A stretch of DNA of 64,000 nucleotides from Chlorobiota bacterium (lineage in GTDB: Bacteria; Bacteroidota; Ignavibacteria; OLB7). The notes beneath the pieces were generated by a model, which had not been told where the DNA came from, ran no database searches, and worked only from the letters and a program-made list of their open reading frames with translations. Shown here in pieces: positions 992 to 48,710 of this stretch. Positions within the stretch are counted from its first letter, which is position 1. Every line of letters begins with the position of its first letter. The stretch lies in assembly GCA_016788565.1 (NCBI GenBank), contig JAEUSP010000018.1:1-64000 (forward strand), read 5' to 3'. Made by a program: the position numbers and the translations under genes.

Positions 992-3559
992 TCACCCCTC
1001 TGCTTTTTTCTTCGTCCCCCGCTTCGGTTTTTTCTCCGGCGGGTTGGCACGGCGTTCTTCGATTAGGGCAACGGCCTCCTCGATTGTCAACTCCTCCACC
1101 GGGCGGTTTTTTGGGATTGGCGCGTTGATTTCGCCATGCTTCAGATATGGGCCGTAGCGGCCAACGTAGGCTTCCACCGGCGCGCCATCCAGCGGGTGGT
1201 CGCCGATAATTCGGATGATGCCACGCTTCCCTTGCCCCAATTTTTTCAGCTCCAACAACTCCAGCGCGCGCGGCAGCTCAATGGCCAAAACGTCGTCGGT
1301 GGATTTCAGCGAAGCAAACTCACCCGCGTGCATCACAAACGGCCCGAACCGCCCAATCCCCACTTTCACCACTTCATCGCTTTCGGGATGATAGCCCAGC
1401 GTGCGTGGCAATCCCACCAACCCAATCGCTTGCTCAAGGGTGATGTTCTCCGGCGTGAACCCTTTTGGCAAGGTGGTCCGCACAACTTTTGGCGCGTCGT
1501 CTTCCCCCAGTTGGACGTAGGCTCCGTAAGGGCCGGTCTTCACGTAGATCGGCAGGTTACTCACCGGGTGGCGGCCAAATTCTTCGGCACCGGAAAGTTT
1601 GCGGCGGACGATTAACTCGGCTTGTTCGGCGGTCAAATCCGCCGGGCCGATGGTGTCCGGAAGCGAGACGCGCAAGGGGTCATCGCCGTTCTCGGCTGGC
1701 TTCTCCAAGTAGGCCCCAAACCGCCCCACGCGAACATCCGCATCAAGGTCATCGAACTGGATGGTGCAGGCTTGGCGCGGGTCAATTTTTTCCTCCTGAT
1801 CTTTCACCTGCTCCTCCAGCCCGTCGCCGCCACGGTAGAAGTTGCTGAGATAGGGGAGCCACTCCGCCTCGCCGTTGGCGATGTCGTCCAAGGTCTGCTC
1901 CATCTGTGCGGTGAAGCCCAAATCCACCAAGCGTGGGAAGTACTGCTCCAGCAGTGAAGTAACCGCCATTGCCGTGAAAGTTGGCACAAGCTGCGTTCCC
2001 GATTTACGGACGTAGCCGCGATCCTGCACGGTGTTGATGATGCTGGCGTAGGTGCTTGGCCGGCCAATCCCTTCGCGCTCCAGCGATTGCACCAACGCGG
2101 CTTCGGTGAAGCGTGCTGGCGGCTTGGTTTCGTGGCCAATCGGCTGAAGGTCGCGGCAGTCAAGCGCGGCCCCGCTGGCAAGCTGGGGAAGCGGAGTGTC
2201 GCGGTCTTCCAGTGTTGCTTCGGGGTCGTCGCTCCCTTCCACGTAGGCGCGGAAGAACCCGGGGAACTCCACCCGTTTCCCCATTGCCCGGAACGTTGCG
2301 TCGCCCGCCTGGATTGCCACGTTGGTGAACCGGACGCGCGCTTCGGCCATTTGCGTTGCCATTGCCCGCATCCAGACCAGGTCGTAGAGTGCAGCATCAA
2401 CGCCATCCAAACCGAGATCGGACGATGTTGGCATGTGCGTTCCGGCGGGGCGAATGGCTTCGTGAGCTTCTTGGGCCGCTTTGCTTTTTGTGGTGAACTG
2501 GCGCGGATTGCTGCTCAGATACTCCGCCCCATATTTCCCCCGCACCGCGTCGCGAATGGCGGCGATTGCCGACTCCGACAAGTTCACCGAATCGGTACGC
2601 ATGTAGGTGATGAAGCCACGCTCGTACAGCCGCTGGGCGCAACGCATCGTCTCCTGGGCACTAAGCCCCAACTTTCGGTTCGATTCCTGCTGCATGGTGG
2701 AGGTGGTGAAAGGGGGCGCGGGGGAACGGGTCTCCACTTTCTCATCCACCTCGGCAACGCGCCAGGAAGCACCCAGCAACCGCTGCTGAAGCTGGCGCGA
2801 TTCGGCCTCGCCCAGCAACAACACATCACGCCCGGCGGCGATGTGGCCGGTGTCGGGATCGAAGTCCTTTCCGATGGCTAACCGCCGCCCACCCAGGGCA
2901 ACCATAATCGCTTCGAACTCACCGTTCGGGGCGGCAAGTGTGGCTTTCAGATCCCAGTAGGTTCCGCTGTGGAATCGGCGGCGTTCAATCTCACGATTCA
3001 CCAACAGCCGCACCGCCACCGACTGCACACGACCAGCCGAAAGGCCGCGCGCAATTTTCTTCCAGAGAAGCGGCGAAAGGGTGTAGCCGTACAGCCGGTC
3101 AAGGATGCGGCGAGTTTCTTGGGCGCGCACCAGCCGGTCGTCAATGGCGCGGGTGTTCTGCAATGCTTCGTGGATTGCTTCCTCGGTGATCTCATGGAAC
3201 ACCATCCGCCGCACCGGAACTTTCGGCTTCAGAATCTCCAGCAAATGCCACCCGATGGACTCACCCTCGCGGTCTTCGTCGGTTGCGATAATCAGCTCAT
3301 CGGCTTCTTTCAATGCAGCTTTCAGCCGCTTTATCACATCGTGCTTTTGCGCGGGGATGATGTAGAGTGGTGAGAAATTTTCTTCGGTATCAACACCGAT
3401 GCGCGCCCATTTGGCTTTCTTGAACGCCGCTGGGATATCGGCAGCTTTTGCCGGAAGGTCGCGCACGCTTCCCATCGAGGCCTCCACCTGATACTCCGGC
3501 GGAAGGAATGACTTGATGGTTTTTGCTTTTGTCGGAGATTCTACGATAACTAGCTTCAT
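992..3559 (-). CDS. topA: DNA topoisomerase I
   Basis: Type IA topoisomerase of 855 residues that relaxes negative supercoils through a 5'-phosphotyrosyl intermediate. The N-terminus MKLVIVESPTKAKTI and the acidic triad DEDREGE at 94-100 form the TOPRIM domain. The catalytic tyrosine lies in GFITYMRTDS at residue 319, the same number as in E. coli TopA. The second half carries topoisomerase C-terminal repeats (YVKTGPYGAYVQLG, GIGRFGPFVMH, YVGRYGPYLKHG) and a lysine-rich tail. No CxxC zinc-finger pairs are seen, unlike the E. coli enzyme but as in many non-proteobacterial homologues. It is a single gene with a repeat nest downstream. Confidence 0.98.
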   Translation of the reverse strand: MKLVIVESPTKAKTIKSFLPPEYQVEASMGSVRDLPAKAADIPAAFKKAKWARIGVDTEENFSPLYIIPAQKHDVIKRLKAALKEADELIIATDEDREGESIGWHLLEILKPKVPVRRMVFHEITEEAIHEALQNTRAIDDRLVRAQETRRILDRLYGYTLSPLLWKKIARGLSAGRVQSVAVRLLVNREIERRRFHSGTYWDLKATLAAPNGEFEAIMVALGGRRLAIGKDFDPDTGHIAAGRDVLLLGEAESRQLQQRLLGASWRVAEVDEKVETRSPAPPFTTSTMQQESNRKLGLSAQETMRCAQRLYERGFITYMRTDSVNLSESAIAAIRDAVRGKYGAEYLSSNPRQFTTKSKAAQEAHEAIRPAGTHMPTSSDLGLDGVDAALYDLVWMRAMATQMAEARVRFTNVAIQAGDATFRAMGKRVEFPGFFRAYVEGSDDPEATLEDRDTPLPQLASGAALDCRDLQPIGHETKPPARFTEAALVQSLEREGIGRPSTYASIINTVQDRGYVRKSGTQLVPTFTAMAVTSLLEQYFPRLVDLGFTAQMEQTLDDIANGEAEWLPYLSNFYRGGDGLEEQVKDQEEKIDPRQACTIQFDDLDADVRVGRFGAYLEKPAENGDDPLRVSLPDTIGPADLTAEQAELIVRRKLSGAEEFGRHPVSNLPIYVKTGPYGAYVQLGEDDAPKVVRTTLPKGFTPENITLEQAIGLVGLPRTLGYHPESDEVVKVGIGRFGPFVMHAGEFASLKSTDDVLAIELPRALELLELKKLGQGKRGIIRIIGDHPLDGAPVEAYVGRYGPYLKHGEINAPIPKNRPVEELTIEEAVALIEERRANPPEKKPKRGTKKKAEG

Positions 3560-3633: not shown

Positions 3634-4440
3634 TTACTTGCCGCTCATGTCGTTGATTCTCACGCCAATTCCCAGAAAGGCCATTGCCTCGGTTCGATTC
3701 GTTGATGGATTGCTGCCGATTGTTGCGCTAAGTTCCAGCGCAATCCGGCGGTTGTTGCCGTCGCCGGTCCAGCCGATGTACGGTGTCCAGAAAACATGGT
3801 CGTCATACACCTGTTTCAGCACCGTCTGGTAATCGCGGGCGGTGACGAAGGTTTCGTCGCTGTAAAGCCAGGTGGCTTTGGTTCCAAGATAGAGGCTGCT
3901 GGAGTTGAACGCCCACGTGTAGCACAGCCCACCGTTCAGCCCGTAGCTGCCGTAGATTCCGGCAACGTTCGTGGAGTCAAAAAAGAAGTGTTCGTCGAAC
4001 ACCCATTGTGCAGCGTAGCCAATCGCGCCAACGTGGGCCGCCATTTTGTGCGGCCCGCTTTCCCGGCCAAACAGCATCTGCCTTAGGCCAACGCCAACGC
4101 CAAAATCAGCTGTCTCGAAATATCCGGCGGCAAGCCCAAACAGCAGGTACGGGGCCGTTACTGTCCATGCCGTGATGCTGGCATCGGTGGTGTTGGTGAT
4201 GGCTGCCTCCAAACGTCCGGTCAAGTAGGGGATGGAGATTGCGTCGGTCATCGCCCAACTGGAGTCGCGGTAGAGGTTCGGAATATCTGGCCCAACGCCA
4301 ACACCGTACATCCCCGCCATTTTGCCGGAACCAAGCGTCTCGGCGTTCTGTAATTCTAGAGTATTGATCGCTGTGCAGCCGTGAAGAAACAGCGCGAAAC
4401 CAACAACCGCGCATTGGCACTCTCGGCTGAAATTCCTCAC
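3634..4440 (-). CDS. Putative outer-membrane lipoprotein
   Basis: A 268-residue protein of no family I recognise. The N-terminus has a hydrophobic stretch ending in the lipobox LHGC (Cys22), so lipidation and outer-membrane attachment are likely. The rest alternates aromatic and Gly/Asn-rich segments, as in beta-rich envelope proteins. It starts with GTG, and its first bases overlap the stop of the upstream GH57 gene (GTGA at 4437-4440), so the two are probably translationally coupled. A functional link to glycan metabolism is only inferred from that coupling. Confidence 0.8.
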   Translation of the reverse strand: MRNFSRECQCAVVGFALFLHGCTAINTLELQNAETLGSGKMAGMYGVGVGPDIPNLYRDSSWAMTDAISIPYLTGRLEAAITNTTDASITAWTVTAPYLLFGLAAGYFETADFGVGVGLRQMLFGRESGPHKMAAHVGAIGYAAQWVFDEHFFFDSTNVAGIYGSYGLNGGLCYTWAFNSSSLYLGTKATWLYSDETFVTARDYQTVLKQVYDDHVFWTPYIGWTGDGNNRRIALELSATIGSNPSTNRTEAMAFLGIGVRINDMSGK

Positions 4441-6761
4441 TCTATCTCCTCCCTCTTGGAAGTTGCCGCAGCTTCACGTAGGGCCTCGGCGGATTGCTCA
4501 TCTTCTTCGATCACTTGCTCCAATTCGGTAAACACCTCGGCCAGTGTTGGCGTGGTTTCGGTTGCTGCGGCTGGCGTTGCTGGGGCGGCAACTTCGGTGA
4601 CATCTGGTGTGACGTTGGGAACGTCTGCCGGGGCAGGGGTTGTTTTCGCTTCGGCGTTCGTCTCAACCACCTCAGCCTCAGGTTGCTGAATAGCTGTTTG
4701 CTTGGCCGGAGCCTTTCCCCGCCTGGCTGTTTGCTGCAACGCAGGGGGGGCGGTTGCTTCAGCCGCTTCGCTCAATTCTCCCCTATCTTCTTCTTCCCTA
4801 TTTCCTTCTTCTCTATTTCCTTCTTCCCTATTTCCTTCTTTCTCATCCCGCTCAACCTTCCCTGCCGAACGAGCAATGCGATAGCTGAGTGGGACCTCAA
4901 TTTCTGCTGACTGAAGAGCTTGCGGGATTGCTGGGGTCGCCGGCACTGCGGCTTGCTGGGCCGGTTGTTTGGCTGCCGATTGAATTGCTATTTCGCCAGC
5001 GTCTTCGGGCCCAAAAACCTCATCCTCTTCGCCGCTTCCATCCGGCTCCAGCGACGACTGACGTGCCCAGAGTGAAAGATCAATGTCATCGAAGATACGG
5101 TCTTGAGCCTCAAGCCGGAGCAGTTGGTTGAACTGCTCGAAGGTCATCGGCAGCCCCTGGCGAAGCTGTTCGATGAACTCAATCAGAAACTGGGCGTTCT
5201 CGTAATGCCCCTGGAATCGCCGCGTGGCGTAGTCCTTGGCCGATTCGGTGGAGATCAGGAATTGCCAGTCGGAGGCTTGCTGCAGCAGCAGTTCGCGGGC
5301 AAGCTGTTTCAGCACACGCTCTTCCAGCAGTTGCTCCGGGTCGTGAGTGCTTATTAGCTCCACAAGTCGGGCTTCAATTTCGTACAGCAGTGGCCAGGTC
5401 CACTGGGTTTCCTCGTTCAGCCAAACTTTGTGGTGGCCCCCTTCGCCCCACGAACCTTCTGGGATTTGAATCGCCACCCCTGGCGTTTTCGCGTCCAATT
5501 CCTGCGGTGCGGTCCGAAGCCGCACGTTTGGATTGTTGGCAAGGCGGCGGATCACCTCACCCAAAAACCGTGGGCCTTCAAACCACCAATGGCCGAATAA
5601 TTCCGTGTCGAACGGAGCCGATAGCGTTCCTTCGCGTCCGGTGGCGTTGCGGTAGCGGCGCATTCGGTCTTCCACAACTTGTACAAAGTGGTCGGCCTGG
5701 GCGCGGATTCGTGCGCCAATGTAGTCGGGGCGGTAGCGTTGCTTGTCCCCCAGGTCCGCCCGCGAGTCGGTGACGCGCCAGTAGCGCATCCCGTTGTTGT
5801 GATGCTTCTTGTGGAACTCTAAATACTCAGGGTCGCCCGGGTAGCCAAACGCCCCGCTCCAGACTTGCAGCGTGGTTTCGGCATCGCGGGTGAAGATTGC
5901 TGTGGTTCCGGCTTCGTCGTCGCCAGCCGAGCAGATTCGGTACAGGTCGTGCACCGCGCGTGAGTCTTGCAGATTCAGGTATCGGCTGCCGTCGCGGCTC
6001 AGTTCCCACTCGTGTCCGAACTGGCTCAGGAACCTGTCCAGCGGAACCCCGGCGCGTGTCAGGTGGCTATCCACCACGGTGTATTCCAAGCCATGCCGGG
6101 CAAGGGTTTGCTCGATTCCATCACGCTGGATCGGCTTGGCATCGGGGCTGAAGACTGGCGGGGTCCACAGGTAGCTGGGGCGGTAGGCGCACTCCGGCAT
6201 CCAGATGCCGCGTGGGCGTTCGCCAAAATGTTTCTGGTGAACTTGGGCCGCCAACGCAACCTGGGCGTTGACGCTTTCCTCGCGGCTTAACAACGGTAAG
6301 TAGCCGTGGGTAACGCCGCAGGTTTGGATTGCGATTGCCCCTTTCTGCAGCAGCCCCCGGAACCCGGCCACAAGGTCGCGCTGGTAGCGAAGGTTGAAGT
6401 CCATTTTCCGGGCCATGTACCAACCAAGCCAGAACTGGGATAGCTCAAGGTAGCCGCTCTCGTCGGGGCGTTCCAGGAAGTACTCATAGTCGGCGTAGGC
6501 CGCTTTGATCTTCTCGTCGAAATACTCGTTCAGGATTTCTGGGAACTCGGGGTCGGCCAACTGCTCCACCACCACCGGCGAGAGTGAGATGGTGATGTTT
6601 GGCGTGATCCCTTCGCTCACCAAATTCCAGCACTCGTTCAAAATTGGGATGTAGCATTCCGCCGCCGCTTCCGATAGCCAGTCGCTGCCATGCGGCCATT
6701 TGCTGTGCCGCAAGACGTACGGAAGATGCGTGTGCAGAATAAGAACAAACGAGCCGTCCAA
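4437..6761 (-). CDS. GH57 1,4-alpha-glucan branching enzyme with acidic tail
   Basis: Glycoside hydrolase family 57 protein of 774 residues, of the glycogen-branching type. The N-terminus has the HTHLPY motif (His10, His12). The likely nucleophile is Glu190 in WMPECAYRP, and the likely acid/base is Asp385 in APFDTELFGHWWFEGP. The helical C-domain continues to about residue 560. Beyond that is a roughly 200-residue low-complexity tail rich in Ala, Glu, Pro and Thr, containing a short in-frame tandem repeat (EEGNR three times, then EEEDR; 15-bp units near 4785-4850). The start is TTG at 6761, chosen because family members begin just before the LxxHTHLPY strand. The tail is unusual. A role in glycogen synthesis is inferred from the family. 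Confidence 0.9.
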   Translation of the reverse strand: MDGSFVLILHTHLPYVLRHSKWPHGSDWLSEAAAECYIPILNECWNLVSEGITPNITISLSPVVVEQLADPEFPEILNEYFDEKIKAAYADYEYFLERPDESGYLELSQFWLGWYMARKMDFNLRYQRDLVAGFRGLLQKGAIAIQTCGVTHGYLPLLSREESVNAQVALAAQVHQKHFGERPRGIWMPECAYRPSYLWTPPVFSPDAKPIQRDGIEQTLARHGLEYTVVDSHLTRAGVPLDRFLSQFGHEWELSRDGSRYLNLQDSRAVHDLYRICSAGDDEAGTTAIFTRDAETTLQVWSGAFGYPGDPEYLEFHKKHHNNGMRYWRVTDSRADLGDKQRYRPDYIGARIRAQADHFVQVVEDRMRRYRNATGREGTLSAPFDTELFGHWWFEGPRFLGEVIRRLANNPNVRLRTAPQELDAKTPGVAIQIPEGSWGEGGHHKVWLNEETQWTWPLLYEIEARLVELISTHDPEQLLEERVLKQLARELLLQQASDWQFLISTESAKDYATRRFQGHYENAQFLIEFIEQLRQGLPMTFEQFNQLLRLEAQDRIFDDIDLSLWARQSSLEPDGSGEEDEVFGPEDAGEIAIQSAAKQPAQQAAVPATPAIPQALQSAEIEVPLSYRIARSAGKVERDEKEGNREEGNREEGNREEEDRGELSEAAEATAPPALQQTARRGKAPAKQTAIQQPEAEVVETNAEAKTTPAPADVPNVTPDVTEVAAPATPAAATETTPTLAEVFTELEQVIEEDEQSAEALREAAATSKREEIE

Positions 6762-7244: not shown

Positions 7245-7428
7245 GTTGAAGACTGGTTATCGGTTTTGGTTATCGGGTTTCAGAAATCGGGAAACGGTTG
7301 ATGGGAAATCACTGGTAATTGGTAATTGGTAATTGGTAATTGGTGATTGGTGATTCAGTGATAGCAATTGGCAGAGCGAACAACACCAAACCACTAATGA
7401 CTAATGACCAAGGACCAATGACTAACGC
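7245..7428 (-). repeat. Three blocks of 7-bp repeats in the DUF3467 leader
   Basis: Read on the minus strand from the end of the TPR gene, the 184-bp spacer holds four GTCATTA/GTCATTG-type heptamers (about 7387-7418), about 35 bp of ordinary sequence, then six AATTACC/AATCACC heptamers (about 7310-7352), then CCGATAA/CCGATTT-type heptamers (about 7254-7295) ending a few bases before the DUF3467 ATG. All three blocks share the 7-bp period while their consensus differs. Confidence 0.85.
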
Positions 7429-8949
7429 CTATCCCCCTAGTTCCGTTGCTTTTTTGTCGGCGGCTTCGGCTTTTTTGCCGTCGCCGATGATGGCGTACAG
7501 GCGGCTTAGCCGGCGCCAGTAATCGGCGGTGCGGGCGTTGTTGCCAACGTTCTCCACCGCTTCCATTTCGCGGACTGCGCTTTTCAGATTGTCGGTCTCG
7601 GCAAGCACGTCGTACAGGTTGGCAAGCTCGCCCAGCAGTTGGTAATCGCCACGGCGTGCGGGGATTGCCTTCAGTTGCTCAAAGTATTTTTTGGATTCGC
7701 GAAGCGGCTTGCGGTACTGCTCAATTTGGTCGTTGGTTGGCTTCCCCTTGGATGCTTCGCGGATTTCGTCCTGCTTCCGCGCACCCAAATTTTTGTACAC
7801 CGCGCCCAAGTTGAACAGCGCGGTTTGCAGTGCCTTGTCGTCGCTTGGCAGGTCAATCGCCAACACCTTGCTGAACTGCTCAATCGCCTTGTCGAACTGC
7901 TTCTGCTCGTTGTACAAGTTGCCGTAGTTGATGTAGGGGCGCGGGTTTTTGGGGTCGCGGCGGATCTGCTCATCCAATGCCCGCATCGCTTCATCGGTGC
8001 GTTTGGTGACGACGTAGATTTCGGCGATGATCTCGCCGATGTCATCACGGGTAGCGTCAAGCTGCTCCACGGTACGCAGATATTTCAGCGCGTCGTCGAA
8101 TTTTCTGGGGTCGCTTTCGGCAGCGTTGTAGGCTTGCACACCAAGCGAGTACCAGGGTGAGGAGCGGATGGTGTTGCCAAGCTGCTGGCGGATGATCTCG
8201 GGCGTTTTATCGTCGCTGCCGTAGAACTTCCATCCTTCCACTATTGAGGCTTCGCCCGGTTTTGCTGAGGGCGCAAAATAGACGTAGAGGTTTTTGGCTT
8301 TGTAGAACGCGAACCCGCCAACGGAATCCGCCACGTTGATGACATCCGGCTTGCCAGCACGGGTTTCAAGTTGGCGGCGGTCAAGGCCCAAGGCCAAGCC
8401 CATTGCCAAGCCTGGGTCCACATCACGGCCAGCAACTTGCGCATAGTGCTGGTAGGTTTTTGTGACCATCGCATCATCCTTCAAACCAAGATAGACCTGG
8501 GCGCGGAGGAAGATATTTTCGGGATAATCTTTCCGAAGCATCTCCGCCGAATCCAACTCCTTCAGCGCTTGGGAGTAACTTTCGCTGTTGTAGTCCTTCA
8601 GCCCCGCATTGAACTTATTCAACCACCCGTTAAAGCGGCGGGCGGCAATGTCCTGGCGTTGGGAATTGCTGATGCTGGCGTTGGGGGCGGCCTCGGCTTT
8701 TGCGTAGGCTTCATCCATCTCCACCCAACGGCTTTGGTCGTTGTAGATGTCGCCCAGCAGCAGCCAGGCTTCAACGTTTCCTGGGCGGGCGGCCACCTCC
8801 TTCTTCAAGGCTTCTTCCGCCTTCTTGTAGTCTTTGGATTTCAGTGCCACCCGCGCAGTGGTAACTTCACTGGAGGCACATTCAAAGCCGCTTAACGCCA
8901 GATAGAGCGTTGCGGCACACAACAGCAGCAGGGAGCGGGAAAGATTCAT
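7429..8949 (-). CDS. Secreted tetratricopeptide-repeat protein
   Basis: A 506-residue protein made largely of TPR helices (for example VEAWLLLGDIYNDQSRWVEM and PRPYINYGNLYNEQKQFDKAIEQFSKVLA). The N-terminus MNLSRSLLLLCAATLYLALS is a signal peptide. Cys24 follows it but has Glu at -1, so it is not a standard lipobox. The start was placed at 8949 although the frame is open to 9138, because the extra 63 codons are translated repeat DNA and the signal peptide begins at 8949. A role as a periplasmic scaffold is inferred. The leader is an array of CCGATTC/CCGACAA heptamers. Confidence 0.87.
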   Translation of the reverse strand: MNLSRSLLLLCAATLYLALSGFECASSEVTTARVALKSKDYKKAEEALKKEVAARPGNVEAWLLLGDIYNDQSRWVEMDEAYAKAEAAPNASISNSQRQDIAARRFNGWLNKFNAGLKDYNSESYSQALKELDSAEMLRKDYPENIFLRAQVYLGLKDDAMVTKTYQHYAQVAGRDVDPGLAMGLALGLDRRQLETRAGKPDVINVADSVGGFAFYKAKNLYVYFAPSAKPGEASIVEGWKFYGSDDKTPEIIRQQLGNTIRSSPWYSLGVQAYNAAESDPRKFDDALKYLRTVEQLDATRDDIGEIIAEIYVVTKRTDEAMRALDEQIRRDPKNPRPYINYGNLYNEQKQFDKAIEQFSKVLAIDLPSDDKALQTALFNLGAVYKNLGARKQDEIREASKGKPTNDQIEQYRKPLRESKKYFEQLKAIPARRGDYQLLGELANLYDVLAETDNLKSAVREMEAVENVGNNARTADYWRRLSRLYAIIGDGKKAEAADKKATELGG

Positions 8950-9238
8950 GTTGGAAATCGGGAATCGGTTGTCGGGAGTCGGTTGTCGGGAATCGGTTGT
9001 CGGGAATCGGTTGTCGGGAATCGGTTGTCGGGAATCGGGAATCGGTTCATTGAGAGCGATTAGCACTGTCGAGTAAAAGAACAGTTTTCGCTCACTTCTT
9101 CGCTCAGAATTTCTTCTTTGCAACTGACCACTGACCATTGACCACTGACTTCCATCGGTTATCGGGAGTCGGAAGTCGGTAATCAGGCTTCTGGCTAACG
9201 ACTAATGACTTTTGTCGGAAATCGGATATACTCGGCGC
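8950..9238 (-). repeat. Composite heptamer element upstream of the TPR gene
   Basis: Read on the minus strand: CCGATTT-, GTCATTA- and CCGACTC-class heptamers (9238-9155), four GTCAGTG-class heptamers ending GTTGCA (about 9150-9121), a unique core of about 75 bp (about 9120-9047), then about 13 heptamers alternating CCGATTC and CCGACAA up to the ATG at 8949. The part from about 9165 to 8950 aligns with 26308-26513 in the same order, including the core, so it is one mobile or duplicated element. Confidence 0.9.
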
Positions 9239-9242
9239 AAAT

Positions 9243-9326
9243 TGGTTTGCGAAATTCTACTCAGCCAGGTGCGCTATGGATTCCCGCTTTCGCGGGAATG
9301 ACAGTGATTGAGTTTTTCGCAAACCA
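9243..9326. mobile_element. 84-bp MITE-like palindromic element
   Basis: A perfect 12-bp terminal inverted repeat (TGGTTTGCGAAA at 9243-9254, TTTCGCAAACCA at 9315-9326) encloses a second perfect hairpin, ATTCCCGC-TTTC-GCGGGAAT at 9280-9299. It has no coding capacity. The inner hairpin resembles the GGATTCCCGC...GCGGGAATGAC palindrome I know from intergenic DNA of other bacteria. The remaining 300 bp up to the transketolase start (9642) shows no gene. Confidence 0.7.
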
Positions 9327-9641
9327 CTCTGTTTGGAGTATAAAGTGTCTGTATTGTTTCTGATCCGGGTGCGTTCGTTGGCCGGAAATTTGTTGGCAAC
9401 TGAGCGTTCCTAATTTTTTTGGCCGCCAAACCTAACCATTTGCCCGCGCCGGAGCAAGGTTCTTCTATATTACAGTATCTCAAAGTGTAGGTAGTTGGCA
9501 GCAATGGCTGGCAAGGGGGGGAAGTTTGTTTAGCTTTGCGGTGCATTCAGTTGGAAGCCGCCAACGGCGGAAAATGTGGCAACTGAATCGCAGCCGCTAT
9601 CCTGAAAATTTCACACGACCGTTTCCCATACCGCTGTTCCC

Positions 9642-10481
9642 ATGCCATTTACGAACGAACGTCACTCGCCCGAAAAATTAGACGAGATAGCCCGCGAAAT
9701 CCGCCGCGACATTATCCGGTCGCTGGTGGTGGCAAAGTCGGGCCACTCCGGCGGGCCGCTTGGCTCGGCTGACATCTTTGCCGTCCTCTACATGGGGGGG
9801 GTGATGAACTACGATCCGCACGATCCCGCAAAACCGGGTCGCGACCGATTTATTCTTTCTGCTGGCCACATGTGCCCGGTGCTGTACGCAACGCTTGCCA
9901 ACGCGGGGTTCTTCCCCAAAAGTGAGTTGCTGACGCTTCGCAAATTCGGCAGCCGGTTGCAAGGGCACCCGGGGCGCGATATGCACCTTCCCGGAATTGA
10001 AAGCAGCACGGGATCGCTGGGCCAGGGGTTATCCATTGCGGTTGGAATGGCACTGAGCGACAAACTGGTAGATCGCAACGATGCTCGCGTGTATGCCCTT
10101 ACCGGCGATGGCGAGCTGCAAGAAGGCTCCATTTGGGAAGCAGTGATGTCGGCAGCGCACTACGGGCTGGATAATTTCTGCATGATCGTAGATAACAACG
10201 ACTGCCAGATTGATGGCCGCGTCCCCGACGTGATGAACATCTATCCGCTCCAGAAAAAATTTGAATCGTTCAATTTCCACGTGATTGAGTGCGACGGCAA
10301 CAACACCGCCGAACTTCTTGCCGCCTTCGATGAAGCCAAAGCCACCAAAGGGAAGCCAAGCTGCATCATTGCCCGCACCTACATGGGGAACGGCGTTAGC
10401 TTCATGCAGGACAAATACGAATGGCACGGCAAACCACCAAGCGAAGATCAAGCAAAGGTGGCGTTGGAGGAGTTGGGGTGA
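9642..10481 (+). CDS. tktA: Transketolase, N-terminal (TPP-binding) subunit
   Basis: A 279-residue protein equal to the first domain of transketolase, which transfers two-carbon ketol units in the pentose phosphate pathway. It has the substrate/TPP histidines in KSGHSGGPLGSAD and QGHPGRD, SSTGSLGQGLS, and the TPP/metal motif GDGELQEGS...DNNDCQ. The C-terminal half is a separate protein, encoded at 10972. Split transketolases occur in many bacteria and archaea, with the halves normally adjacent. Here an S23-type gene and heptamer repeats lie between them. The upstream 9327-9641 region shows no clear gene. Confidence 0.95.
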   Translation: MPFTNERHSPEKLDEIAREIRRDIIRSLVVAKSGHSGGPLGSADIFAVLYMGGVMNYDPHDPAKPGRDRFILSAGHMCPVLYATLANAGFFPKSELLTLRKFGSRLQGHPGRDMHLPGIESSTGSLGQGLSIAVGMALSDKLVDRNDARVYALTGDGELQEGSIWEAVMSAAHYGLDNFCMIVDNNDCQIDGRVPDVMNIYPLQKKFESFNFHVIECDGNNTAELLAAFDEAKATKGKPSCIIARTYMGNGVSFMQDKYEWHGKPPSEDQAKVALEELG

Positions 10482-10492
10482 GTTCGTTGCTT

Positions 10493-10517
10493 GTGGTCAG
10501 TTGTCAGTGGTCAGTTG
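10493..10517 (+). repeat. Left heptamer end of the S23 cassette
   Basis: The units GTGGTCA, GTTGTCA, GTGGTCA and GTTGCAT lie 12 bp after the stop of the transketolase N-half. The terminal GTGGTCAGTTGCA is the same as at 9121-9135 (minus) and 26335-26349, and it is inverted relative to the array at 10938-10970. Confidence 0.9.
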
Positions 10518-10545
10518 CATTGTCGAGTCATGGCCAGATTATACT
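10515..10545 (+). promoter_or_regulatory. Possible promoter of the S23 gene
   Basis: TATACT at 10540-10545 is a good -10 hexamer, and TTGCAT at 10515-10520, formed by the last heptamer, could be a -35 with a 19-bp spacer. Transcription would then begin close to the ATG at 10552, giving an almost leaderless message. This is a motif match only. Confidence 0.3.
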
Positions 10546-10551
10546 CTCATT

Positions 10552-10932
10552 ATGGCGCGATCCCAGTTTGAAAACCTTCAGGTTTATCGTCTGGCAGAAC
10601 AGCTTGCTGATGCAGTATGGAAAGTTGTGAAATCATGGCTAGCGTTTGAACAACGAACAATTGGCTTACAACTGATACGATCAAGTGATTCAATTGGCGC
10701 GAACATCGCCGAAGGAACGGGGCGGGGTACATTTCAAGATAACAGGAGATTTGTCCGAATAGCACGCGGCTCGCTGTATGAAACGAAGCATTGGCTACGT
10801 CGCGCTTTTGCCCGCCAGCTTCTTACATCAGAAGAAATCAATGTATTGAAAGCAATCGTTGACGAACTTTCTCCAAAACTGAACAGCTACCTACAATCAA
10901 TCGGCCCTAAAGAGGGCGAAATAGATACATGA
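10552..10932 (+). CDS. Four-helix bundle protein (S23 / 23S rRNA intervening-sequence family)
   Basis: A 126-residue all-helical protein with the family marks FENLQVYRLAEQLADAVW, SIGANIAEGTGR and ARGSLYETKHWLRR. The family (PF05635, TIGR02436) was named from ORFs in intervening sequences of 23S rRNA genes, but most members are free-standing and their function is unknown. It shares its fold with the Avd accessory proteins of diversity-generating retroelements, but no reverse transcriptase is present in this window. The ATG at 10552 was chosen because the open frame further upstream only shadows the transketolase gene. The gene sits between inverted 7-bp repeats and splits an otherwise contiguous operon, so it was probably inserted. 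Confidence 0.92.
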   Translation: MARSQFENLQVYRLAEQLADAVWKVVKSWLAFEQRTIGLQLIRSSDSIGANIAEGTGRGTFQDNRRFVRIARGSLYETKHWLRRAFARQLLTSEEINVLKAIVDELSPKLNSYLQSIGPKEGEIDT

Positions 10933-10937
10933 TCTTT

Positions 10938-10970
10938 TGCCACTGGCAACTGACAACTGACAACTGACAA
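10938..10970 (-). repeat. Right heptamer end of the S23 cassette
   Basis: The units CACTGGC, AACTGAC, AACTGAC, AACTGAC and AA end directly at the ATG of the transketolase C-half. Their reverse complement (GTCAGTT)nGCCAGTGGC mirrors the left array, so the S23 gene has heptameric terminal inverted repeats. I could not find a clear target-site duplication. Confidence 0.88.
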
Positions 10971-10971
10971 T

Positions 10972-12060
10972 ATGACCACTTACGGCTCGAAAGCAACACG
11001 ATTTGGATTTGGGGAAGGCCTTGCGGAATTGGGCGCACAAGACGAACGGATCGTCGTTCTTGGCGGCGACATCACCGGCTCGGTTCTTACCAGCCTCTTC
11101 AAAGAAAAATTCCCCGACCGATTCTTCTCGATGGGAATTGCCGAACAGAACGCCACCACCGTGGCGGCTGGGCTGGCACTTAGTGGCAAGGTTCCGTTCT
11201 TTGCCAGCTACGGCGCGTTCTGCGCGCTTCGCAATGCCGACCAGCTCCGAATCTCGGTGTGCTACAACGAAGCCAACGTAAAAATTGGCGGCGGTCATAG
11301 CGGCATCTCCGTCGGTCCCGACGGCGCAACTCACCAGATTTTGGAAGACATCGCACTGCTGCACGCGCTACCCCACATGACACTGGTGGTCCCGTGCGAC
11401 TACTTGGAAGCAAAGAAGGCAACGATTGCAATCGGCCAGATGATTGGCCCGGCCTACATCCGTTTTGGCCGCGAATCCACACCGATGTTCACCACCGAGG
11501 AAACCCCCTTCCGGCTTGGGAAAGGTGAGGTGTTCCGCCAGGGGAACGATCTTGCCATTATCGCTTGCGGGCCAATGGTCTGGGAAGCACTGGTTGCTGC
11601 CGACGAGCTAGCAAAAGAAGGGATTCAAGCACGGGTAATCAACATCCACACTATCAAGCCGTTGGATGAAGAAATCATTGCCGAAGCCGCGCGCGAATGC
11701 GGAGCAATCGTCACGGCCGAGGAAGCCCAGATTATCGGCGGGTTCGGTTCGGCAGTGGCTCAGGCGGTGGTGAAAAATCACCCGGTGCCGATGGAGTTCG
11801 TGGGCGTTACCGACACGTTCGGCGGGTCCGGCACACCAACCGAATTGATGAAAGCCTTTGGCCTTACCAGCGGCGACATCTACAACTCCGCCAAAAAAGT
11901 GCTGATGCGCCGCAGCGGACAGTGGAACGGTTTCCAACGGATGACCGAAGTTGGCATGGAAGGCCAACACCCACAGAACTACCCAAAACCTGGCGTCGTC
12001 TTCCCGATTGAGGAATTGATTGAGGCCGACCGCCAAGCCGCCGCCGAGCAAACCGCGTAG
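10972..12060 (+). CDS. tktB: Transketolase, C-terminal (Pyr plus C-domain) subunit
   Basis: A 362-residue partner of the subunit at 9642. The conserved catalytic glutamate is in GIAEQNATTVAAGLA, followed by FASYGAFCALRNADQLR and HSGISVGPDGATHQ. The C-domain includes VINIHTIKPLD. Together the halves should form an alpha2beta2 transketolase. The ATG follows the last repeat unit by one base and no Shine-Dalgarno is visible, so insertion of the repeats has replaced the original spacer. It is about 45 residues longer than many TktB halves, owing to a C-terminal extension after about residue 315. Confidence 0.95.
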   Translation: MTTYGSKATRFGFGEGLAELGAQDERIVVLGGDITGSVLTSLFKEKFPDRFFSMGIAEQNATTVAAGLALSGKVPFFASYGAFCALRNADQLRISVCYNEANVKIGGGHSGISVGPDGATHQILEDIALLHALPHMTLVVPCDYLEAKKATIAIGQMIGPAYIRFGRESTPMFTTEETPFRLGKGEVFRQGNDLAIIACGPMVWEALVAADELAKEGIQARVINIHTIKPLDEEIIAEAARECGAIVTAEEAQIIGGFGSAVAQAVVKNHPVPMEFVGVTDTFGGSGTPTELMKAFGLTSGDIYNSAKKVLMRRSGQWNGFQRMTEVGMEGQHPQNYPKPGVVFPIEELIEADRQAAAEQTA

Positions 12061-26297: not shown

Positions 26298-26513
26298 CCG
26301 ATCCCAGAAACCCGATGTAAGTCAGTGGTCAGTAGTCAGTGGTCAGTTGCAAAGAAGAAATTCTGAGCGAAGAAGAGAGCGAAAACCGTTCTTTTACTCG
26401 ACAGTACCAATCGCCATCAATTAACCGAAACCCGACAACCGATTCCCGAAACCCGATTCCCGACAACCGATTCCCGAAACCCGATTCCCGACAACCGAAA
26501 CCCGATTCCCGAT
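26298..26513 (+). repeat. Composite heptamer element, second copy
   Basis: Four GTCAGTG-class heptamers (26321-26348) end in GTTGCA. They are followed by a core of about 75 bp, then thirteen CCGAAAC/CCGATTC/CCGACAA heptamers (26425-26513) that stop immediately before the ATG at 26514. Core and order match 8950-9165 on the opposite strand with a dozen or so differences in about 115 aligned bases before the second array. Both copies end against a start codon. Confidence 0.92.
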
Positions 26514-26861
26514 ATGCAAGCATTTCTGATACAAGGCGCGGCAACCACCGAGCTTGACCGCGCAAACGAGCTACTAAACACTGGCTGGAAAATTGCCGAA
26601 GCAGTCCGCGTTGGCAACCCAGAAACGGAGGATGGAGCGTTGATGCTGATCCTGAAAGAAGGGACCGAACGCTCACGGCGCGCGATTCTTGTGCGCTCCG
26701 GCGGTGGCGACAACAACGGCATTGCTGCTGTGAACGAAGCACTAAGCCAGGGATGGAACGAGCGCGAATCCACCTTTGCTGTGAACCGCACTTGCACGTT
26801 GGTGGTGTTGATGAAAGAACCCGACCGGCAGGTTGGTTTTTCACCAACGAAGTGGGGGTAA
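26514..26861 (+). CDS. Hypothetical protein with an internal duplication
   Basis: A 115-residue protein of unknown family. Two halves align: ANELLNTGWKIAEAV...LMLILKE (about 17-50) and VNEALSQGWNERES...TLVVLMKE (about 71-102), so it is probably a duplicated small alpha/beta unit. Soluble, no signal peptide. Its start codon follows directly on a heptamer array, so the translation signal must lie in repeat DNA. That the frame survives intact and duplicated supports a real gene. Confidence 0.65.
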   Translation: MQAFLIQGAATTELDRANELLNTGWKIAEAVRVGNPETEDGALMLILKEGTERSRRAILVRSGGGDNNGIAAVNEALSQGWNERESTFAVNRTCTLVVLMKEPDRQVGFSPTKWG

Positions 26862-26930: not shown

Positions 26931-26982
26931 TTCACTGTTCGGTGGCTCCGCTCATACTTCGACGGGGCTCAGCATGAGCGGG
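26931..26982 (+). repeat. Dispersed repeat family A
   Basis: GTTCGGTGGCTCCGCTCATA, then CTTCGACGGGGCTCAGCATG and AGCGG: a copy of the repeat at 917-975. The spacer 26862-27110 holds no gene. Confidence 0.85.
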
Positions 26983-29849: not shown

Positions 29850-32120
29850 ATGCGCTACTTCCTGGCTTTGCTCTTTCTGCTTTGCTCACTTCCATTGCTG
29901 CTCCCCGGCGGGCTTCTGGCCGATACTCCTCCATTTTCCCCCAACGCCTTCCCCACGCTTGAGGTTGCGCGAACATCCACACCGCCAACGATTGATGGAG
30001 TTCTGGATGACCCCTGCTGGCAGGCCGCGAACGTGGCCACCAATTTTTCCGAGTTCACCCCCGGCGACCGGGCGAAACCGCCGGTGAACACCGAAGCAAT
30101 GGTGGCCTACGACGATCACCACCTGTACGTCGCCTTCCGTTGCTACGATGACCCCGCAACAATCCGCGCCACCTTTGCCAACCGCGACCAAGCCTTCAAC
30201 GATGACCAAGTTGGATTGATCCTTGACACCTACGGCGATGCCGGGCGCGCCTACGAAATTTTCACGACAGCCACCGGTGTGCAGGGGGACTTACTCTGGA
30301 CCAACGACGACGAAGATGCCAGCTTCGACATGATCTTTGAATCGGAAGCGCAGATCACGGGCCAGGGCTACATCGTCGAGATGGCGATTCCCTTCAGCAG
30401 CATCCGTTTCCCCGACCAGCCGGAGCAGAAATGGCGGGCAACCTTCTGGCGAATCCACCCGCGCGACAGCCGCCGCGAGTACTCATGGTCGGCAATCAGC
30501 AAGGATGACCCCTGCCAGTTCTGCCAGTACGGAACGCTGACGGGGATCCAAAACATCAGGCCTGGGGGGAAACTTCAGTTTCTTCCGGCGGTGATCGCTT
30601 CCCAGTCGGCAGCACTGGCCGACCCAAGCGACCCCGGCAGCGGACTAAACAATGATGAAGTGAAAGCTGATGCTGGGCTTGGGATTCGCTACGATTTCAC
30701 CCCAAGCATCACCGGGGAAGTTGCCGTAAATCCTGACTTCAGCCAGATTGAATCGGACAACACCCAGCTTGGGCTGAACACCACGTTCGCCCTGTTTTAT
30801 CCCGAACGCCGCCCCTTTTTTCAGGAAGGAAGCGACCTGTTCAACACCTGGATCAATGCCGTGTACACCCGCTCGATCAACGACCCGCTGGTGGCCGCAA
30901 AACTGATTGGGAAATCGGAGAAATTGAGTGTGGGGTACATTGGAGCCTATGATGAAAACACGGCGATGCTGCTGCCGTTCGAGGAGTTCACGGGGTTTGT
31001 GGCTGGGCCCAACGATAAGCCGCTCCGCAGCTTTTCCAACATCATCCGCTTGCGCCGCGCTTTTGGGAACAACAACTACATCGGCGCGCTGCTTACCGAC
31101 CGCCGGTTGGTTGGCGGGGGATCGGGGACCACCGCTGGGTTGGATGGCATCACACGCTTTGCCGGAAACTGGCAGGTGGAATCGCAGTTCATGGTAAGCC
31201 TCACAAAGGAATCTACCGACTCGGGGCTGACCGAGTTCTACCGCAACGTCCGTTTTGACCAGGGGCACCACACCGCTACGTTCGATGGCGAAACGCTTGA
31301 GGGAATGGCAGCATACCTCAGCCTTGAACGCAGCGCGTTGAACTGGTCTCTGGATGTTGATTACAAGATGAGCAGCCCCGGATTCCGCGCTGCCGATGGC
31401 TTCATCTTCAACAACAGCCGCCACGAACTTAATGCTTGGAGCGGCTACGCCTTCTACCCGCAGGAGAGCTTCATCTTCAGAATCCAGCCGAACGTGATGC
31501 TGGGAAGGGTTTGGAATTGGGAGGGGGTGCCGAAAGATTTTTGGCTGCGCCCAGCGGTAAGCCTTGATATGAAAGGGCAAACAAGTTTTTCGCTGGCATA
31601 TCTGATTAGCCATGAACTGTTCCGGGGAATTCAGTTCCCGGGGATACGCCGCGTGGAGATCAACCTGAACACCAATGCCTGGCAGGAAGTCTCGGTCGGG
31701 ACATGGATGTCGTTCGGCAGAACGATTGCGCGCTCGATACCAACGCCGGTGCTGGGGCGCGGCATGGACATCAATCTGTGGGGGACTTTCAAGCCGTTGG
31801 AACGGCTGACGATTGCGCCAGAAGCGATTTACGCAAAGCTGGATTACCCCGACGACCGGGGAAACATCTTTGAGGCAACCATTTTCCGCTTGCGGTTGGG
31901 GTATCAGTTCAGCCGCGAGTTCTCGGCACGGCTTGTTGGCGAGTACGTCACCGAAGGGAAGCAATTCCGGTTGGAGCCGTTGCTGACCTACAAGCTGAAC
32001 TCCTTCTCGGTCTTCTATCTTGGCTCGTCGCACGCCCTGGACGATTACCCCGCCCCAACAGGACTAACCCAAACCGACCGCCAGTTGTTCTTGAAATTCC
32101 AATACCTCTGGAAGGTGTAA
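29850..32120 (+). CDS. DUF5916 / family-9 carbohydrate-binding-like outer-membrane protein
   Basis: A 756-residue secreted protein. The signal peptide is MRYFLALLFLLCSLPLLLPG. An N-terminal CBM9-like domain (about 35-215) has TIDGVLDDPCWQAA, HLYVAFRCYDDP, NDDQVGLILDTYGDA and GYIVEMAIPFSSIRFP. A long C-terminal DUF5916 region follows (AVNPDFSQIESDNTQLGLNT and FYPERRPFFQEGSDLF are characteristic), predicted to form an outer-membrane barrel and ending in FLKFQYLWKV. The ligand is unknown. The start at 29850 is set by the signal peptide. Confidence 0.9.
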   Translation: MRYFLALLFLLCSLPLLLPGGLLADTPPFSPNAFPTLEVARTSTPPTIDGVLDDPCWQAANVATNFSEFTPGDRAKPPVNTEAMVAYDDHHLYVAFRCYDDPATIRATFANRDQAFNDDQVGLILDTYGDAGRAYEIFTTATGVQGDLLWTNDDEDASFDMIFESEAQITGQGYIVEMAIPFSSIRFPDQPEQKWRATFWRIHPRDSRREYSWSAISKDDPCQFCQYGTLTGIQNIRPGGKLQFLPAVIASQSAALADPSDPGSGLNNDEVKADAGLGIRYDFTPSITGEVAVNPDFSQIESDNTQLGLNTTFALFYPERRPFFQEGSDLFNTWINAVYTRSINDPLVAAKLIGKSEKLSVGYIGAYDENTAMLLPFEEFTGFVAGPNDKPLRSFSNIIRLRRAFGNNNYIGALLTDRRLVGGGSGTTAGLDGITRFAGNWQVESQFMVSLTKESTDSGLTEFYRNVRFDQGHHTATFDGETLEGMAAYLSLERSALNWSLDVDYKMSSPGFRAADGFIFNNSRHELNAWSGYAFYPQESFIFRIQPNVMLGRVWNWEGVPKDFWLRPAVSLDMKGQTSFSLAYLISHELFRGIQFPGIRRVEINLNTNAWQEVSVGTWMSFGRTIARSIPTPVLGRGMDINLWGTFKPLERLTIAPEAIYAKLDYPDDRGNIFEATIFRLRLGYQFSREFSARLVGEYVTEGKQFRLEPLLTYKLNSFSVFYLGSSHALDDYPAPTGLTQTDRQLFLKFQYLWKV

Positions 32121-32506
32121 GCCAGCCTGGAATGTTGGAATGCCGAATGCTGAATGTCGAATAGAAGAGTGCAGAATGGGAAGTTGGGAATGCTGGAACC
32201 GGCCACCAAACCCCGCCCTCCGCTCATGCTGAGCCTGTCGAAGTATGAGTGGAGCCACCGAACCCAATCGCCTTCGCGCCTTCCCTCACCCCCCCCAAAA
32301 AAGAGTGAAGAGTGAAATGGGAAGAGTGAGATGGAACCAAAGCAGGGAACTCACTAATGACCAATGACTAATCACCACTCCACTCCACACCCCCCGCCCT
32401 CCGCTCATGCTGCCTCCCCATCCCAAATATATCCACCGCTTCCCGTAACACGTTGTCAGTTCTGATTGCTTACATTGGGGCGCAAGTGTAGGTTTGCCCT
32501 CCTTCA
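32121..32506. repeat. Repeat-filled spacer before plsX
   Basis: In order: heptamer-like units around GGAATGC/CGAATGC/TGAATGT/CGAATAG (32130-32166), an inverted copy of dispersed repeat A (32213-32265), AAGAGTG heptamers (about 32303-32330), CACTAAT/GACCAAT/GACTAAT heptamers (about 32350-32375) and a truncated repeat A (32391-32412). No gene. The plsX promoter probably lies in the last 80 bp. Confidence 0.8.
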
Positions 32507-46948: not shown

Positions 46949-48655
46949 TTACTCAGCCTTCCCCAGGCTGCGCAGATGCCCTTGCAGTTGCTGGCGTTGC
47001 TGGGCTGGCAAGGGGCTTAGGTCAATCACCGCTTGGCCATCCACCACTTCATATTGAAGCTCAGTTGCTTCCCCTCTGGTTCGTTTGCTTTCCCCTTTCT
47101 GCACCAGCGTGACTTGGATTGTGTGGGCCGAGTCAAGGTACAGTTGGGCGTTGCGCACCAGTGTGGTTTCCGCAAGCAGGCGTTGCGTGGCCGGCTTGGT
47201 GAAGGTCAGCTGGTTGTTGCTGAACCCAGCAATATCATCCGCGCCAACTTGGGGGCCGGCAGCGGCAAGCCCTTGTTGTGATGAACTGACCACAGCAGAC
47301 CGGGCTGGGCTAACCTCTTTTTTCCGCGCTTTGGAAAGGGACTTCCCCTCTTCCGATTTTTCAGCGGCAAACTCAGCCGGGGCATCTTTGTTGAGCTGCT
47401 TGGAGGAAGCCTTCACACTTCTGCCACGCGGATTGATTTTGTGCAGATCGGCAGCGATTGCCACTGGCGGCGGCGGTGGCTCGGCAGATGCAATCGCGTT
47501 CGGTGCGGAGCTTTCCGGTGTTGTTGCGGGGGTTGTCCCCATCAAGCTGATACCGCCGCTGGGTGGCATGGAGTTGCTGAACACCACCCCTCTATCCAAC
47601 GGGTGTTCTGCGCCCATCCCCTCTTCCTCCCCTTCAGCAAGCAATTCGGCAATCGTGATGGTGGGTGTGGTATCGGCAGTGGCGGTACGCAAATATGCTG
47701 CACGTCCGCTTCCATCCAACATCATTGTGCCATCACGAGCATCCAATTTCAGCGAGGTTGAGGCTTCATCTTCATCAAACCGTGCAATTGCACCTCCGCT
47801 CGCTTCACTTGTTCGGCTGGCCTCGGCCATCGCAATCTCGCTATCCTCCACTGTTCCAAATGGATCAGCGTGGGAAATGGATTCGGGAGCTACGTCATCC
47901 ATTGCAGTGATGGCATCGCCGTTGTGCGCTTCTGCTCGGCCAGCGCGGGTGCGGTACAATGCCGCGCCGCCTTCATCTGCCGAGGCTGCTGCGGGTTGGC
48001 TGGTTGGCTGATTCATCGCCAGCAGTTCCTGTCCAACTTTTCCTGCAATCGCTGAATCGGCCTGAACCGGGGAAGCGGCGGCTCCATTGCCCGATTCCGT
48101 TTTTGTTTGCGGCATCACTCCAACGCCCTGGCTAAGCTGGGCATCGGCAAGGCTTGGCTCGGCTTGATTGCCGCCAAACCCACCACGCTGCCAAACAATG
48201 CCGCTGGCAACCACCAACACCAGCAGTGGAAGCAGAATTGCAGCCAACCGACGGCGGCGGCGGCGTTCCGTGGCTTGGTTGACGGCCAAGCCCGAGCGGG
48301 AAACAGAGTGGTTGAGCGACGCAAACCGGGACGGTGTGGAAATTGTTTTTTGCGGCTGCATCAGCAACGGTGCTACCGGGGATGCGGGAACGGAATCTGC
48401 TACATCGGGGGCCCCTGAATCGGCAAACGATCCCATCCCTTCTTCCCGTTGCAGGCGGCTGAACAGGGCGTTGCGCATCTGGGGGCTTGGCGTGTGCAGC
48501 ACCCGTGCGTCGCGGGCAACCCCCTGCAAGGCAATCTGCGCCCTGAAAATTTTCCGCGCCTCGGGCGAGACCGACAAGCGATGATGCAGCTCGGCCTCGG
48601 CCTCGCTGCTCAGCGTGCCATCAAGGTATTGTGATATTAGCTCTTCGATATTCAT
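46949..48655 (-). CDS. Large membrane-bound putative anti-sigma factor
   Basis: A 568-residue protein. The N-terminus MNIEELISQYLDGTLSSEAEAELHHRL is like anti-sigma/FecR-type cytosolic domains. After a basic RRRRRR run comes one transmembrane segment (about 138-155), then a roughly 400-residue periplasmic part of low complexity (Ala, Ser, Pro, Glu) that ends in a compact region (about 490-568). The gene follows an ECF sigma gene on the same strand, 99 bp away, so a cognate pair is likely. The unusually long periplasmic part may be the sensor. Confidence 0.8.
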   Translation of the reverse strand: MNIEELISQYLDGTLSSEAEAELHHRLSVSPEARKIFRAQIALQGVARDARVLHTPSPQMRNALFSRLQREEGMGSFADSGAPDVADSVPASPVAPLLMQPQKTISTPSRFASLNHSVSRSGLAVNQATERRRRRRLAAILLPLLVLVVASGIVWQRGGFGGNQAEPSLADAQLSQGVGVMPQTKTESGNGAAASPVQADSAIAGKVGQELLAMNQPTSQPAAASADEGGAALYRTRAGRAEAHNGDAITAMDDVAPESISHADPFGTVEDSEIAMAEASRTSEASGGAIARFDEDEASTSLKLDARDGTMMLDGSGRAAYLRTATADTTPTITIAELLAEGEEEGMGAEHPLDRGVVFSNSMPPSGGISLMGTTPATTPESSAPNAIASAEPPPPPVAIAADLHKINPRGRSVKASSKQLNKDAPAEFAAEKSEEGKSLSKARKKEVSPARSAVVSSSQQGLAAAGPQVGADDIAGFSNNQLTFTKPATQRLLAETTLVRNAQLYLDSAHTIQVTLVQKGESKRTRGEATELQYEVVDGQAVIDLSPLPAQQRQQLQGHLRSLGKAE

Positions 48656-48660
48656 CGTGC

Positions 48661-48710
48661 TGTTATTGAAATGCCAAATGTCAAGTGCCGAGTGTCGAAT
48701 GGGGGATTGG
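48661..48710 (-). repeat. Heptamer array in the anti-sigma leader
   Basis: On the plus strand the units are AAATGCC, AAATGTC, AAGTGCC, GAGTGTC and GAATGGG. Read on the minus strand they end about 13 bp before the ATG at 48655. The 7-bp period is the same as in the other arrays, but the consensus is different. Confidence 0.75.

Follow-up and report, generated by a model that had tools for sequence, protein, structure and literature searches.

Features of the window

The window is the whole stretch of DNA that was analysed, 64,000 nt from a draft Bacteroidota genome of 4.58 Mb in 137 contigs (G000). Its spacers hold tandem arrays of 7-bp units, two of them on either side of a small gene between the two transketolase subunit genes. 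The features considered in the following are

7245..7428, minus strand: array pair between two minus-strand genes, with two arms and a DUF3467 gene downstream
8947..9150, minus strand: second copy of the ORF-less element, with 86% identity to 26320-26520 in the opposite orientation; it ends at the start codon at 8949
9151..9238, no strand assigned: mixed GTCGG/TAATGAC heptamers in nested arrays beside the 8947-9150 element
9642..10481, plus strand: tktA, transketolase N-terminal subunit (Pfam PF00456, E=1.4e-54), upstream neighbour of the cassette
10493..10519, plus strand: 5' arm of the IVP cassette, (GGTCAGT)n ending in GTCAGTTGCA, 12 nt past the tktA stop
10552..10932, plus strand: PF05635 gene (23S rRNA intervening sequence protein, S23 or four-helix-bundle protein; Pfam E=2.7e-29 over the whole profile)
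10938..10970, plus strand: 3' arm of the cassette, (CAACTGA)n, inverted relative to the 5' arm and ending 1 nt before the tktB ATG
10972..12060, plus strand: tktB, transketolase C-terminal subunit (Pfam PF02779/PF02780), downstream neighbour
26320..26514, plus strand: ORF-less element, (GTCAGTG)4, a core of about 75 bp TTGCAAAGAAGAAATTCTG..ATCGCCATCAATTAA, and a CCGATTC/CCGACAA/CCGAAAC array up to an ATG
32130..32166, plus strand: GAATGYC array just 3' of the stop codon at 32120
32301..32377, plus strand: AAGAGTG array and then AATGACC/CTAATGA array upstream of plsX, G arm before C arm
48661..48710, minus strand: weak GAATGYC-type array directly 5' of the ATG of gene 46949-48655

TRF reported arrays of 7 bp, or of the multiples 14 and 28 bp, at 7313-7355, 7393-7425, 8956-9045, 9123-9149, 10496-10517, 10942-10970, 26321-26347, 26425-26514, 32138-32162, 32301-32329 and 32356-32377. 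The sites where the initial annotation had read 7-bp tandem units do carry them, 48661-48710 being a weak site that TRF missed and that a period-7 scan gave as 48669-48698.

Period-7 arrays in the genome

The periods were scanned in an unbiased sample of 926 kb of the genome, taken from the starts of contigs C1-C80. Period 7 gave 84 segments and its multiples 14, 21, 28 and 35 gave 89, 50, 33 and 28, against only 3, 1, 7, 3, 4, 1 and 4 segments for periods 4, 5, 6, 8, 9, 10 and 11, and a first-order Markov shuffle of the sample yielded no period-7 arrays. Period 7 is clearly enriched, and the absence of such enrichment, which had been named beforehand as grounds for giving up the proposal, was not what this 926-kb scan returned. 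At a looser threshold and with the window included, 137 of 139 arrays lie outside predicted genes, which answers the earlier question of a restriction to spacers. The classes of unit first listed for the window are also the main classes when units are counted genome-wide (on the G-rich strand AGTGGTC 44, GAAGAGT 25, GAATGTC 23, GGAAATA 15 and GGGGATC 10), and the density of arrays is about 90-140 per Mb depending on the threshold. A preferred number of units was rejected, as the scan's lower limit of detection partly produces the peak at 4 units.

The arrays are polar and come in inverted pairs, neither of which had been recorded in the initial annotation. Of the arrays no more than 15 nt from a stop codon, 29 are G-rich and 2 C-rich on the sense strand; of those within 15 nt of a start codon, 22 are C-rich and 8 G-rich on that strand, and neighbouring arrays follow each other in the order G..C 22 times and C..G once. 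The P values for polarity and order are 5e-8 and 6e-6, with counts that are approximate because the gene calls come from a simple hexamer model.

The cassette between tktA and tktB

The 5' arm at 10493-10519 is complementary to the 3' arm and also to 9119-9145, and the 60 nt at either end of the cassette RNA are predicted to form 37 base pairs with each other. The cassette hence has the complementary, predicted stem-forming termini of an intervening sequence (IVS); its site is the tktA/tktB junction and not helix 9, 25 or 45 of 23S rRNA. Solved relatives of the PF05635 protein are 2GSC (XCC0516) and 2RLD. At the tkt junction of related genomes the IVP gene and both arms are present in L113, where tktB is 96% identical to that of the window, and in L114, and neither is present in L115; L114 has no further array in 21 kb at the scan threshold. 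Only two PF05635 genes are found in G000, the second (L031) with a clear array only on its 5' side, and given the density of arrays most of them therefore have no IVP gene nearby.

Arms around PF05635 genes in other genomes

We compared PF05635 loci from one genome each in the class and phylum (51 chromosomal loci) and from plasmid records (20) with 28 control loci, all of a single gene family, PF01812. A period-7 array lies within 200 bp of the gene at 24 of 51 chromosomal and 17 of 20 plasmid loci and at none of the 28 controls; arrays on both sides were found at 15 of the 20 plasmid loci, and other periods within the same distance of PF05635 genes are near zero save a few of period 8. Tested against shuffles, the arms are significantly inverted-complementary at 34 of 51 chromosomal, 16 of 20 plasmid and 0 of 28 control loci (Fisher P about 1e-9 and 2e-9 against the controls, for loci that are partly non-independent in that some share related arms), leaving about a third of the 51 chromosomal loci with no significant arms. 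In loci of 3-4 kb there are 43 period-7 arrays in 95 kb around PF05635 genes as compared with 6 in 119 kb around tktB, and 4 of those 6 flank a PF05635 gene.

The unit of the arms is particular to each locus, for example TCAGGAG (L255), AGTAGGG (L259), GGGTGTA (L260), GGTGACA (L261), GTATTGA (L232) and TTAGTGG (L233), and the ends of seven cassettes form 25-42 predicted pairs. Loci of this kind occur in Bacteroidota, Cyanobacteria, Gemmatimonadota, an alphaproteobacterium and two IMG/VR contigs. On the IMG/VR contigs (L399 297-752 and L400 1915-2375) the PF05635 gene has AACGTTG arrays on both sides, a unit which includes the palindrome AACGTT. A phage origin of the PF05635 units was rejected as 50,697 phage records gave no PF05635 match, but the two IMG/VR contigs do carry heptamer-flanked IVP genes.

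Genomes of the phylum have up to 16 PF05635 genes. We detected no period-7 array in 560 kb of genomes with no PF05635 gene and a single one in 240 kb of genomes with one, both groups belonging to other families than G000, which has 84 in 926 kb and two PF05635 genes.

Relation to 23S rRNA intervening sequences

In Azospirillum (L262) the PF05635 locus lies inside a complete 23S rRNA gene, the only such case among 20 loci scanned. In the alignment to the model the insertion falls within a hairpin loop that follows model position 1218. The heptamer arms lengthen the helix at this point, and one long stem is predicted by folding; judging from its position in the molecule, we take this helix to be helix 45. 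The Coxiella IVS is likewise found in helix 45, and it has GACAGAT heptamers before the S23p ATG in a number that depends on the strain (PMC4990558). With heptamers present in both L262 and Coxiella, rRNA IVSs and operon units share the same type of arm. Excision of the IVS from the transcript by RNase III is known for Coxiella and others. The 23S rRNA IVSs with an S23p/IVP ORF (Leptospira, Coxiella and others) also consist of a PF05635 ORF between complementary stem-forming termini. The units described here differ in that they lie mostly between protein genes and have full period-7 arrays on both sides, and in that arrays without an ORF are far more numerous.

Further, 23S_rRNA_IVP genes in cas loci have been listed among the CRISPR-Cas-associated functions (PMC3936711). 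The same family was found here as cas6-IVP-cas4 (L256, L261) and cas10-IVP-cmr3 (L254), and because these genes have arms and the family is present in many other operons, the link between PF05635 and heptamers calls that listing into question and suggests that IVP genes in cas loci are insertions rather than CRISPR functions.

Filled and empty sites

One operon, found in nine copies on Nostoc plasmids, allows two junctions to be compared. Junction A, between ORFs of 441 and 288 nt, is filled in L255, L390 and L391 and empty, with the gap TAG-NTT-ATG, in L327 and L392-L395; L396 holds another short ORF. Junction B, between the 288-nt ORF and one of 1542 nt, is filled only in L327, where GAGGTAATGGGATTTG is changed to GAGGTAATG-unit-ATGGGATTTG, and empty in the other eight of the nine. 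The empty Nostoc sites are without arrays, so that in Nostoc units with complete arms are seen at sites that elsewhere have no array. Nostoc edaphicum has a unit at the nrdA/nrdB junction, its IVP gene running antisense to the operon, and in Calothrix NIES-4105 this junction is empty. By match coordinates only, 2 of 8 genomes of one Bacteroidota genus have the L274 site filled; in the other 6 it is split with a gap of 11-68 nt, and the L279 site is split with a gap of 51 nt in G201.

Taken alone, filled and empty sites may fit either insertion or precise loss. In L391, a heptamer-armed unit of 182 nt with no ORF and a hairpin core of its own interrupts the IVP ORF at 2522-3085 of the Nostoc plasmid, and the same ORF is intact in L255 and L390; ORF-less units therefore also arrive as units.

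The units resemble MITEs and REPIN/RAYT in being short and non-coding, with inverted ends and many copies. They differ from these in having tandem arrays that vary by locus as arms, and in that neither a constant short target-site duplication (none or 1-3 nt at the examined junctions) nor a parent transposase was found. There is no transposase within the unit and we identified no mobility enzyme.

Elements without a PF05635 gene

The array sites of the window outside the tkt cassette contain no PF05635 gene. The element at 26320-26514 belongs to a block of about 190 bp with about a dozen long copies in the genome, a dispersal of the 26320-26520 block that the initial annotation did not mention. 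The long copies hold the core between a GTCAGTG array on one side and a CCGATTC array on the other, and in most of them the CCGATTC array stops at a start codon. The two arms of 26320-26514 are of these different units and form 2 predicted pairs; they hardly pair and the element is thus not a simple hairpin. G001, of the same genus, has copies of the 5' array with other cores in place of the one of about 75 bp, and at the 8950 site of the congener L113 the arrays surround a different core, hence the outer arrays can predate the core.

Read in gene sense, 7245-7428 has a GTCATTA arm after the upstream stop and an AATTACC/CCGATAACC arm before the DUF3467 start codon. The (GGTAATT)n run at 7313-7355 is absent at the corresponding site of L113 and accounts for the difference in length.

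A proposed common origin of the arrays

We consider it likely from these comparisons that the period-7 arrays belong to small insertion units of the IVS/IVP type, either as their arms or as relatives without an ORF. The initial annotation had proposed one mechanism behind the differing units. Judged from the sequences, it seems right that arrays of different unit sequence share one common cause, an insertion unit with inverted period-7 arms and often a PF05635 gene; the other part of that proposal, the copying of 7-nt units from a template, gained no support, and reverse transcription as the copying step is disfavoured. The search for reverse transcriptases of the RVT_1 family (PF00078) gave no match at E <= 1e-10 in G000 or in G039, which is among the genomes richest in PF05635 genes, and G178 and G294 (16 and 15 PF05635 genes) were also not among the genomes with a match. 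The reverse transcriptase expected of a retroelement (diversity-generating retroelement, retron or group II intron) was thus not found in the PF00078 search of G000 and G039. Avd of the diversity-generating retroelements is a homologous four-helix-bundle protein (PMC10053308); the present system differs in the lack of an RVT_1 match in G000.

In its full form a unit would consist of a PF05635 gene (IVP/S23) flanked by two mutually inverted arms. An arm usually has some 3.5-5 repeats of 7 (sometimes 8) nt in tandem; it is G-rich on the strand entering the insertion, and its repeat sequence is particular to the locus. Such units would settle in loops of 23S rRNA and, more often, between co-transcribed genes, close after a stop and close before a start, where the position between stop and next start should keep the insertion nearly neutral for the operon. 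When transcribed, the arms would form a long stem enclosing the IVP message, like that of the 23S IVS, and by analogy RNase III could excise it. The sequences themselves display the arms and their inversion, the association with PF05635 and the contrast of filled with empty sites; we infer that the arms serve as recognised ends and that their stem undergoes processing. The ORF-less arrays of G000 would come from the same process, since they share unit, polarity and position. In the window, 10493-10970 would then be a full unit and 26320-26514 and 8947-9150 ORF-less units; the remaining arrays, being pairs or single arrays of like polarity, would be ORF-less relatives or remains.

It is unlikely, in our judgement, that known machinery acting in trans, e.g. 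a RAYT/IS200-type Y1 transposase, moves the units with the IVP as a passenger. Elements with hairpin ends are typical substrates of such transposases, and Y1_Tnp (PF01797) was found in 8 of 9 genomes tested, including one copy in G000; G001, however, has two PF05635 genes and many arrays and no PF01797 match, and no RVT_1 gene was found in G000 either.

It is quite improbable that the arrays are ordinary repeats formed by slippage. Period 7 is over-represented among the SSRs of many bacteria, and the number of units varies, both between the window and its congener at 7313-7355 and among Coxiella strains, so slippage may still alter unit number in an array. Slippage alone yields neither inverted pairs nor polarity, however, and leaves unexplained the G..C order (22:1), why the polarity at stops and starts is fixed, why PF05635 genes have locus-specific arms on either side, why empty sites lack arrays, and why period-7 arrays are absent from genomes with no PF05635 gene.

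We regard it as very improbable that selection keeps the arrays near starts and stops as G-quadruplexes or other elements of gene control, as one may read Rehm et al. 2015 on GGGNATC: the geometry in Xanthomonas and Nostoc is alike, with the G strand on the coding side after stops and on the non-coding side before starts, and GGGAATC units do occur, but a three-G tract is present in only part of 8958-9045 and 26425-26514, most classes (GTCAGTG, GTCATTA, GAATGYC, AAGAGTG) have no run of three G, so that it was rejected as the common factor, and PMC4692102 could not identify a role in gene regulation.

Returning to insertion units with heptamer arms, we speculate, tentatively and as a rather unlikely possibility, that the IVP binds the ends of its own element as a pentameric ring, with one AG step taken by each four-helix bundle. 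The number 7 would then be the spacing of neighbouring sites with the other five bases free, and the arms would be the ends through which the element moves, in the form of single-stranded RNA or DNA and independently of any known transposase. TRAP and its spaced GAG/UAG repeats offer a comparison. XCC0516 is a ring of five four-helix bundles according to the title of its structure paper, which PMC4990558 and PMC3936711 cite. An AG-N5 pattern scored 3.03 bits against 2.32 +/- 0.12 before related units were removed, and after their removal AG is present in 19 of 23 units (P 0.015 for one of 16 dinucleotides). The AG columns are better conserved in IVP arms (48 of 62 versus 99 of 190, P 0.0006) and not better conserved in the arrays of the window's genome. 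AG-N5 was rejected as a universal rule, the signal being modest once related units are removed, and is kept only as a working hypothesis; it hints weakly at a ring reading one AG per 7 nt, which would explain a fixed length along with a free sequence. If the ring proposal is true, the heptamer SSRs of cyanobacteria, Xanthomonas and Bacteroidota would all stem from a single, as yet unrecognised class of mobile element.

Calothrix was reported to have heptamer repeats, and later work dealt with those of Xanthomonas and Nostoc, with no function known (PMC4692102). The present arrays resemble these STRR and GGGNATC repeats in being tandem, intergenic and dispersed, and have the same side preference near stops and starts. 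They differ in the link to PF05635 and in their Bacteroidota host, which lies outside the heterocystous cyanobacteria as the initial annotation had supposed, its closest named relatives being Kapabacteria, Chlorobiota and Ignavibacteria MAGs. Xanthomonas campestris also has an IVP protein, XCC0516 (2GSC). Heptamer SSRs (PMC4692102), the IVS as possible mobile DNA (PMC4990558) and IVP genes of cas loci (PMC3936711) have been published separately, and our search, which covered the open literature and little of the subscription literature, found no paper joining the three. Two old puzzles, the heptamers and the PF05635 genes of unknown function, hence become one testable question. PF05635 genes are common and lie inside many kinds of operon, CRISPR-Cas included, and the proposed link would extend the IVS from rRNA to ordinary operons.

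Other repeats

Besides the heptamers, a dispersed palindromic repeat, GCTCATGCTGAGCCTGTCGAAGTATGAGTGGAGCCACCG, is found in both orientations at 917-974, 32203-32260, 26937-26966, 163-204 and 678-719; it is REP-like and distinct from the heptamers. A repeat of about 110 bp, ACTCCAAACAG..TTTGCGAAA..GATTCCCGCTTTCGCGGGAATGAC..TTCGCAAACC, is present at 9240-9345 in the window and at 1850-1960 of L031, the latter copy directly following the genome's second PF05635 gene. In G001, many (GTCAGTG)n arrays (loci L334, L338, L339, L342, L343 and L345) are bounded by an inverted pair ACCTTACGCA..TGCGTAAGGT, a second repeat family nested with the heptamers. At the left end of the window, 1-195 and 516-710 form a direct repeat of 195 nt, 91% identical and 515 nt apart. 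Finally, ORF 4437-6761 contains four copies of a 15-bp tandem repeat, TTCTTCCCTATTTCC, at 4776-4840, with a period that is a multiple of 3.
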